Shown here piece after piece: positions 304 to 16,871 of a stretch of 25,833 nucleotides of DNA. The notes under the pieces were generated by a model. It ran no database searches. It was not told the DNA's origin and worked only from the letters and a program-made list of their open reading frames with translations. The first letter of the stretch is position 1, and each line of letters begins with the position of its first letter. The translations under genes and the position numbers were made by a program. Source of the DNA: Dehalococcoidia bacterium (GTDB lineage: Bacteria; Chloroflexota; Dehalococcoidia; UBA3495); NCBI GenBank assembly GCA_030753265.1, contig JASMCQ010000105.1, positions 1 through 25,833 of the forward strand, written 5' to 3'.

Positions 304-380
304 TGGAGGCGACGGGCGGATTCGAACCGCCGAATAGAGGTTTTGCAGACCTCCGCCTTAGTCCACTTGGCTACGTCGCC
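304..380 (-). tRNA. tRNA-Cys (anticodon GCA)
   Basis: On the minus strand the gene starts GGCGACG and ends CGTCGCC-T-CCA, so the acceptor stem pairs fully and CCA is encoded. The anticodon stem GAGGT/ACCTC closes loop CTGCAAA, giving anticodon GCA. The T arm GGCGGTTCGAATCCGCC is canonical. It follows tRNA-Leu(GAG) after only 30 bases, which suggests joint transcription. Confidence 0.96.
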
Positions 381-410
381 GTGGTTCTTTATCAACCAAT
401 GTCGCCGAGT

Positions 411-497
411 TGGTGCCGAGGGCGGGATTTGAACCCACACAGGCGAATGCCCACGGCCCCCTCAAGACCGCGTGTCTACCAATTCCACCACCTCGGC
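411..497 (-). tRNA. tRNA-Leu (anticodon GAG)
   Basis: This 87-base class II tRNA begins GCCGAGG on the minus strand and ends CCTCGGC-A-CCA with encoded CCA. The anticodon stem CGGTC/GGCCG closes loop TTGAGGG, so the anticodon is GAG. A long variable arm (GGGCATTCGCC) follows, as expected for leucine tRNA. An extended -10 promoter about 18 bases upstream suggests it is the first gene of the tRNA group. Confidence 0.96.
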
Positions 498-15689: not shown

Positions 15690-15831
15690 TCCTTCGACAA
15701 GCTCAGGACGAACGGAATGTCCCCGATCCCCGAGCGAACGGATTATCCCCGTTGGACCGCATGTTCTCCGTCTGACCGCATGCTCCCCGTTGGACCGCAT
15801 GTTCTCCGTTCGTGGTGAGCTTGTCGAACCA
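15690..15831. repeat. TTCGACAAGCTC inverted repeat enclosing three 19-bp tandem units
   Basis: CCTTCGACAAGCTCAGGACG (from 15691) and the inverted CGTTCGTGGTGAGCTTGTCG (from 15807) form the arms of an element in a 314-base gene-free stretch (15572-15885). Between them GTTGGACCGCATGTTCTCC occurs at 15751-15769 and 15789-15807, with the variant GTCTGACCGCATGCTCCCC at 15770-15788, giving three head-to-tail units. A second copy of the arms, without the tandem units, is at 22270-22332. Nothing else is recognised in the stretch. Confidence 0.85.
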
Positions 15832-15885
15832 CACCGGCTGGTGATTGGATAGGCTTTGAGCCGGTTCGAGGGCCGCGCCGCCGGG

Positions 15886-16206
15886 TCAAGCCACCGAGGC
15901 CCCGCGCCCCAACATCATACCGCCGGACATCTCGATCACCCCGTTCAGGCGGCGGAAAAACAGGAACTTTTTCAGGTCAATATCGATGCTCCGGGCCTGC
16001 CGGGCCAGGTCCGGCGTTACCAGCAGCTCGACTCCGTCTCGCCGGACAACCCGGTACCGGGAAGTGTCCCGCCTGCCGATGTGGGTATCGACCGATACCT
16101 CTACACTGCTGCCCGCTCAAGACGACAGGCAGATCAGGTCTACGGCCGCCCGCCCGCCCTTCTTCTGAATCTCGGCTCGGGCATTATCGCTAAGGGTTAC
16201 ATCCAT
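15886..16206 (-). CDS. Putative selenoprotein, IscA/HesB-like small protein with in-frame TGA
   Basis: The frame opens at ATG 16206, seven bases after GAGGA, and runs 106 codons to TGA at 15888-15886. Codon 30 (16119-16117) is TGA, giving CLSSU followed by AGSSVEVSVDTHIG. The downstream part (YRVVRRDGVELLVTPDL, then IDIDLKKFLFFRRLNG) keeps the G/C-rich third positions of neighbouring genes, so it is coding. A SECIS-like hairpin lies directly after codon 30. The N-terminal VTLSDNARAEIQKKGG resembles the IscA/HesB-like family, for which selenocysteine forms and CC-motif forms are known; I assign that from memory. The function is presumably redox or metal handling. It follows YqeK and HIT genes. 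The alternative is a pseudogene with a nonsense mutation. Confidence 0.75.
16079..16106 (-). promoter_or_regulatory. SECIS-like stem-loop
   Basis: In the mRNA, GGUAUC (16099-16094) pairs with GAUACC (16089-16084) around the tetraloop GGUC (16093-16090). A lower stem GUGU/ACAU flanks an AGA/C internal loop. The loop begins 23 nt after the in-frame UGA, within the usual 16-37 nt of bacterial SECIS elements. GGUC is also the apical loop of the E. coli fdhF SECIS, where its G and U contact SelB. The bulged U of that element is not reproduced exactly here. Confidence 0.7.
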
Positions 16207-16236
16207 CAGGTTTCCTCGGCCTGGGTTTGTGATTCT

Positions 16237-16264
16237 AAGCGGACCTCAGGCGCACAATCCGCTT
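16237..16264. repeat. 7-bp hairpin between yqeK and the putative selenoprotein gene
   Basis: AAGCGGA (16237-16243) and TCCGCTT (16258-16264) pair across 14 bases in the 77-base gap. No T-run follows on the minus strand, so read-through into the selenoprotein gene is plausible. Confidence 0.4.
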
Positions 16265-16283
16265 AAACATTAAGATGCTCCGC

Positions 16284-16871
16284 TCATTGGGTAGATGCAA
16301 CCCCTGCCGCCAGCAGGTGGTTGCGGGTCTCGATCATCGCCGGGTGGACCATCGAGCCCTGGGACACCATCGAGACGATCTCCCGGTCCAGAAACTCCAG
16401 CACCGCCCGGTCCAGGTTTTCCAACGCCATTCGGCGCAACTCCGGTAGGTACGGATACCTGGCTATCTTTTCCGGGTCCAGCTTGTCGGCCAAGAAGACC
16501 ACCTTCCCCAGGCCGTCCAGAGACGGGTGGGCGGTGGTATGCCAGTAGACGGCCTGGTAGAGGGCTGGGTCGTCCAAGCCGGACTCCCGCTTGAGGATCT
16601 CGGCCCCCACCGGCCCGTGGAGCAGCACCGGAACCTCTCGCTCCACCGCTCCGATGGGGAGGCCCATCTCCGTGGCGCGGCGGGTCAACTCTTCTTCCGG
16701 CATGGCACGGGCCACATCGTGGGCCAGCATGCCCAGAGCGGCCCGTTCCCCATCGATTCCATGGCGACCGGCCAGCTCGCGGGCAATCCCTCTGACCCGG
16801 TATATGTGCGCCTGAAGGCCGTCGGGCAGGGCATCCACCCTTCTCTGAATCTGATGGACCAGCTCGTCCAT
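16284..16871 (-). CDS. yqeK: HD-domain hydrolase, YqeK-like diadenosine tetraphosphatase
   Basis: YqeK proteins cleave Ap4A symmetrically to ADP. This 195-residue protein has the metal-binding HD pattern: His22, the His51-Asp52 pair in LAHDVAR, His85 in LLHGPVGAEIL, HTTAH at 111-115, and Asp129 in VVFLADKLDP. The last two segments distinguish YqeK from other HD proteins. GGAGGA lies about six bases before the ATG. The gene starts 14 bases after the HIT gene stop, so the two are one transcript; both families act on dinucleotide or AMP-linked substrates. The usual partners nadD and rsfS are not adjacent. Confidence 0.9.
   Translation of the reverse strand: MDELVHQIQRRVDALPDGLQAHIYRVRGIARELAGRHGIDGERAALGMLAHDVARAMPEEELTRRATEMGLPIGAVEREVPVLLHGPVGAEILKRESGLDDPALYQAVYWHTTAHPSLDGLGKVVFLADKLDPEKIARYPYLPELRRMALENLDRAVLEFLDREIVSMVSQGSMVHPAMIETRNHLLAAGVASTQ

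Follow-up and report, generated by a model that had tools for sequence, protein, structure and literature searches.

An overlooked, probable selenoprotein gene in Dehalococcoidia: a variant of the CC/Se motif family with a candidate two-selenocysteine sister branch

Does the UGA codon inside a short frame of a Dehalococcoidia bacterium end translation, or does it specify selenocysteine (Sec, U)? The frame lies on the minus strand of contig JASMCQ010000105.1 (assembly GCA_030753265.1), at 15886-16206 of the 25,833-nt stretch analysed here (the window), whose numbering is used throughout. A first-pass annotation had proposed an unannotated selenoprotein gene here, describing a 106-codon minus-strand frame with a ribosome site, TGA at codon 30 and a selenocysteine insertion sequence (SECIS). 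The coordinates were confirmed: the ATG starts at 16206, the terminal TGA occupies 15888-15886, and the translation reads MDVTLSDNARAEIQKKGGRAAVDLICLSS-U-AGSSVEVSVDTHIG..., with U at codon 30. The proposal itself is now strongly supported, and we put the probability at roughly 0.93 that this is an overlooked selenoprotein gene in which the codon-30 UGA would insert Sec under the direction of a bacterial SECIS downstream. It very probably is one, judging from four lines of sequence evidence, namely a conserved frame and UGA, a conserved and covarying hairpin, the Sec machinery of related genomes and homology to Cys-containing forms.

15886-16206, minus strand: candidate selenoprotein gene of 106 residues, Sec at residue 30, ATG start and TGA stop; 31 homologous copies have UGA at the equivalent codon
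16117-16119, minus strand: UGA codon 30, predicted to specify Sec; TGA in 32/32 copies; distant homologues with CC align their second Cys here
16129-16131, minus strand: codon of Cys26, a non-conserved residue (L003 has Ser)
16212-16217, minus strand: GAGGAA, resembling a ribosome site upstream of the ATG, by sequence inspection

Conservation of the internal UGA

A scan of genome contigs returned four loci (L001-L004, from Dehalococcoidia, SAR202 and Chloroflexi) with about 49-62% protein identity to the window, all with TGA at codon 30. A profile whose codon-30 column is mostly Cys, as a stand-in for U, was run on 393 genomes of the class of genome G001, a sample of a larger group. It found 28 places in 27 genomes, every one with the internal TGA, and a second profile recovered the identical set of genomes. 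The window, L002-L004 and the profile matches make up a comparison set of 32 gene copies from 31 genomes, G001 contributing two tandem copies. TGA stands at the aligned codon in all 32, the 31 relatives being members of the two closest branches from 30 other genomes; no relative was confirmed among viral contigs. The first-pass annotation had named CLSSU as the active motif, of which U30 stands, being invariant in the 32 copies, whereas C26 does not: L003 has Ser in its place, L011 carries the Cys one position away, and no Cys stands there in the sister branch. Tandem second copies adjoin the gene at L001:5593-5892 (46% identical to the window protein) and L002:5996-6295 (43%). Both carry an in-frame TGA (CLDKU), and the L001 copy has a degenerate hairpin; the copy beside L002 was left out of the 32-copy count.

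The pattern of substitution bears on whether the frame is translated through the UGA. In the close pair L001/L002, changes at the three codon positions number 4:2:6 on the 5' side of the UGA and 7:3:31 on the 3' side. The skew is smaller in the distant pair of the window and L001 (8:3:11 before, 23:18:31 after), and protein similarity is retained on both sides even between distant pairs. If the UGA were a true stop, in a decaying gene or through a sequencing error, only the downstream piece or nothing would be made, and public gene callers did annotate 9 of the 11 matches in one protein search only after the UGA, among them P0005, a GenBank SAR202 'hypothetical protein'. Such truncation had been foreseen in the first-pass annotation, which expected gene finders to call only a fragment. 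A stop is nevertheless very improbable given the same codon in 32/32 copies, the third-position-rich change on both sides in L001/L002 and the protein likeness across the UGA in distant pairs. Still less probable is that the coding strand is the opposite one, where a 136-codon frame is open at 15856-16266 (plus strand), and that the hairpin is coincidental or another element: of the 41 differences between L001 and L002 on the 3' side of the UGA, 31 are at the third codon position of the sense frame, which does not coincide with the wobble of the antisense frame, and homologues of the sense frame extend to distant genomes.

We also examined which residue occupies the Sec position in homologues. 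As the first-pass annotation had suggested checking, close relatives have Sec at residue 30 and distant ones Cys; Cys at this position was found in distant homologues only. NCBIfam model NF041239 gave four matches over 400 genomes sampled from the phylum, none above its cut-off: G001, L046 and L047 (both CC), and L048 (CU), which by eye has its own GU-loop hairpin. Among 75 further homologues, the 43 inspected comprise CC in 23, CW in 11, Cys two places on (C-x-C/S-x-C) in 6, CY in 2 and CR in 1, and the CC proteins P0154 and P0155 are 62-63% identical to L048. In a profile comparison of the A2 set with 17 hand-picked Cys forms, U30 is matched to the second of the two Cys (97.9%, E 6e-13). Many homologues are printed with the Pfam accession PF28096.

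The downstream hairpin and the Sec machinery

In bacteria, a hairpin just downstream of the UGA recruits SelB carrying Sec-tRNA-Sec. A GGUC-loop hairpin just 3' of codon 30 would play this part here, with the ribosome decoding the UGA as Sec.

16084-16099, minus strand: candidate SECIS hairpin, a perfectly paired 6-bp stem (GGUAUC/GAUACC) with a GGUC loop
16081-16101, minus strand: codons 36-42 (EVSVDTH), DNA identical in the window and L001-L004

The stem, the loop and the 23-nt distance from the UGA to the loop are as first described, whereas the additional 'lower stem' is weakly supported. The motif occurs once within the window. Since folding energy alone is a poor test for this hairpin and for the second one described below, a hairpin-specific score was used instead. 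When the 45 nt that follow the TGA are dinucleotide-shuffled 500 times, a GU-loop hairpin of equal quality is rare (p = 0.008), and 29/32 copies pass the shuffle test at p < 0.05. The decisive evidence that the hairpin is real is comparative: the 21-nt block of codons 36-42 is unchanged in all ten pairs among the window and L001-L004, while the remaining codons carry synonymous changes, 4-12 before the UGA and 11-28 after it. At the homologous place the loop is GGUC in 29/32 gene copies, the exceptions being L011 (CGUG), L013 (AGUC) and L027 (GGUA).

Covariation of the stem was assessed on the 32 copies, 31 of them distinct, with six pairs giving 186 cells, five measures and 500 shuffles. Standard pairs fill 95.7% of the cells, compared with 28-61% when the partner is slid. 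One stem pair covaries, being GC in 22, AU in 8 and unpaired in 1, and the 8 double-changed cells exceed a shuffled mean of 2.5 and were reached by none of the 500 shuffles. The AU form is found in the window branch and, within the sister branch, in L025 and L028. Because L024 and L026, which are close to those two, show GC instead, this comparison, made without a tree, suggests that the double change occurred repeatedly. The Val codon that comes with the AU form, GTA, accounts for 14 of the 266 Val codons in ten window genes.

Decoding also requires partners, and the counts here cover SelB and tRNA-Sec in the relatives' genomes, with a non-carrier background for SelB. SelB scores above cut-off in 28/30 carrier genomes (8/8 and 20/22) and tRNA-Sec in 26/30, with anticodon UCA in the three checked. 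One or the other is present in all 30 carriers and both in 24; the gaps may be explained by incomplete assemblies. Within the class sample, SelB was found in 25/27 carriers versus 123/189 non-carriers (p = 0.002, uncorrected for kinship).

The UGA might instead be read as another amino acid, by reassignment to Trp or by selenium-free near-cognate read-through. A larger protein search listed 120 of 213 matches, of which 24 were inspected, the other listed ones being 62-87 residues long. Among the matches listed, ten close full-length entries cross codon 30, with W in 6, R in 2, G in 2 and Cys in none, and 14 further inspected entries begin after the UGA. W occupies the Sec position in P0139-P0148, P0151 and P0015, R in P0003, P0016 and P0156, and G in P0014 and P0021; the R and G codons are one base from TGA. 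The six W entries would suit such decoding. W at this position, however, probably arose because genes were called under genetic code 4: P0015 has W also at its C-terminal UGA and at its stop, and 6 of 11 'RCW' proteins have W at the place of the terminal TGA of L048, as code-4 calls predict. In addition, ten Pfam-matched window genes are free of internal stops and TGA terminates two of the ten, and decoding as another residue leaves the hairpin and the co-occurrence of SelB and tRNA-Sec without a role. We therefore regard it as improbable, at a few chances in a hundred. By the same token, selenoproteins may hide as code-4 W calls in metagenome catalogues.

Several observations weigh against insertion of Sec at codon 30. 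RNAfold gives the 49-nt stretch a z of only -1.69, and 11 of 200 shuffles fold equally well. The double change is confined to one of the six stem pairs and two pairs are invariant; two of the five covariation measures are not above shuffles, the number of double-changed pairs being reached by 484/500 and that of further pair types by 500/500. Three copies, L034, L035 and L037, do not pass the shuffle test for the hairpin. Finally, none of the ten close full-length entries has Cys, and their R and G residues remain unexplained.

Family placement and a sister branch with a second UGA

The window protein scores 40.1 bits against NF041239 (Moor_selen_rel, predicted from Moorella thermoacetica), barely over the cut-off of 40. 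From its sequence, we place the product in a variant branch of the family of CC/Se motif (seleno)proteins and do not count it as a strict member, because the CC/CU or CxxU motif is not present: in the window the arrangement is C-x3-U, and Ser adjoins U. In alignments, U30 comes opposite the second Cys/Sec of the CC/CU of NF041239, and all 30 A2 members match the model at E up to 1. The differences are that the vicinal Cys is replaced in the window (SSU), giving C-x3-U, and that genome searches place relatives under the cut-off. The review PMC13188914 lists the CC/Se motif family with CxxU and one Sec, in contrast to the apparently two in the sister branch described below.

The first-pass label 'IscA/HesB-like' survives for the predicted fold but not for the family, NF041239 being the nearest model. 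The classical HesB-like selenoproteins (TIGR01911) were rejected for lack of a model match and because the window has U-A-G-S in place of UxGP, the motif given for them in PMC13188914. They resemble the window protein in being small Sec proteins with a HesB/IscA name, and 1/30 A2 members matches TIGR01911 weakly (E 0.035). Strict membership of IscA/SufA (PF01521, Fe-S_biosyn) was likewise rejected, the window protein having no PF01521 match and only the Cys35 place filled, by U30.

In the sister branch, 21 of the 25 genes have a second, C-terminal UGA, usually as PT-U-x-H-stop, placed 2-5 codons ahead of the real stop; the other four have Cys. The loci are L014:1501-1800 (plus strand) and 20 more among L012-L036. 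The C-terminal U/C and the His are invariant in this branch. Following the second UGA is a covarying hairpin, most of which lies beyond the stop codon, within 3' untranslated sequence, and the mean folding z of the C-terminal region is -0.93 for the 21 UGA genes, compared with +1.42 for the 4 Cys genes and +0.64 for the 7 others. It is highly likely that the sister branch includes two-Sec proteins, with U30 and a C-terminal U, whose second SECIS lies mostly beyond the stop. Within the accessible parts of four open-access papers (PMC13188914, PMC1088965, PMC2398784 and PMC9312934; 'CC/Se' is not searchable as a term), neither a two-Sec form of the family nor a CC/Se-family variant branch in Dehalococcoidia is described.

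The gene is thus very probably a new variant within a known family, and the two-Sec sister branch merits separate study. It adds a selenoprotein branch missed by gene callers in a mostly uncultured lineage (marine SAR202 in two relatives), and offers comparative material in the form of a covarying SECIS, tandem copies and natural C-terminal Sec/Cys swaps with the hairpin present or absent accordingly.

Predicted fold, possible role of U30 and genomic surroundings

The 106-residue product is predicted to form a single domain of the IscA/SufA type, which would place the selenol of U30 where IscA has Cys35, presumably the first of its metal or iron-sulphur (Fe-S) ligands. There the selenol could be a ligand to an Fe/Fe-S species or a soft metal, with the protein probably oligomeric. 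We favour this role over that of a redox selenol, though from sequence and predicted structure we give it slightly less than an even chance. Three findings weigh against it: the sequence match to IscA, at 37% and 61%, is modest; confidence in the model is lowest near residues 21-30 (mean predicted local distance difference test score 66); and the C-terminal cysteines of IscA (CGC) lack an equivalent in the window protein. IscA has three conserved cysteines, C35, C99 and C101; no alignment to IscA extends to its C-terminal cysteines. A metal or Fe-S site would therefore need a partner subunit or other ligands. A search by sequence among solved structures found none related (one row, E 0.74), and the two-Sec branch by itself gave no significant hhalign match to IscA (1.4%, E 0.036). 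The IscA-like DsrR of Allochromatium vinosum matches in fold only; to our knowledge it lacks the IscA cysteines.

Alternatively, U30 may be a metal-free redox selenol of the peroxidase or thiol-exchange type, with the IscA fold a mere scaffold. The window protein has a single Cys besides U30 and no CGC, which suits this role, and section 7 of the review PMC13188914 considers most uncharacterised selenoproteins to be likely redox proteins. Against it, U30 aligns to a metal-ligand Cys of IscA, the invariant C-terminal U/C and His of the sister branch suit a metal site, and C26, the sole resolving Cys, is not conserved. A redox selenol remains a substantial possibility, at around one chance in three. 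Extending metal ligation by U30 to the whole family is a tentative proposal: the Dehalococcoidia proteins would be an IscA-fold family in which ligand Cys became Sec, once in the window branch and twice in the sister branch, to form a selenolate Fe-S or soft-metal site. Should Sec indeed replace an IscA ligand Cys, the family would allow a direct test of selenolate ligation within an A-type-carrier fold.

The surroundings were viewed over about 1.5 kb on each side for most loci besides L001, L002 and L011, and the neighbouring genes gave no functional clue.

16284-16871, minus strand: HD-domain protein (PF01966), the upstream neighbour, which adjoins the gene also in L001, L002 and L011
16886-17302, minus strand: HIT-family protein (PF01230), with order kept in L001, L002 and L011

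The order ArgG, aminotransferase, acyl-CoA dehydrogenase, HIT, HD and candidate selenoprotein gene is kept in L002 and in L001, where only the end of ArgG is on the contig; L011 keeps the last three. Between the gene and the next one, at 15700-15850, repeated phrases around GAACATGCGGTC and CGACAAGCTCA-type sequence were seen by eye, and these look like an intergenic repeat. Elsewhere in the window, tRNA-Cys and tRNA-Leu genes lie at 304-497 (minus strand), and a third tRNA match at 1-68 is cut by the window edge.
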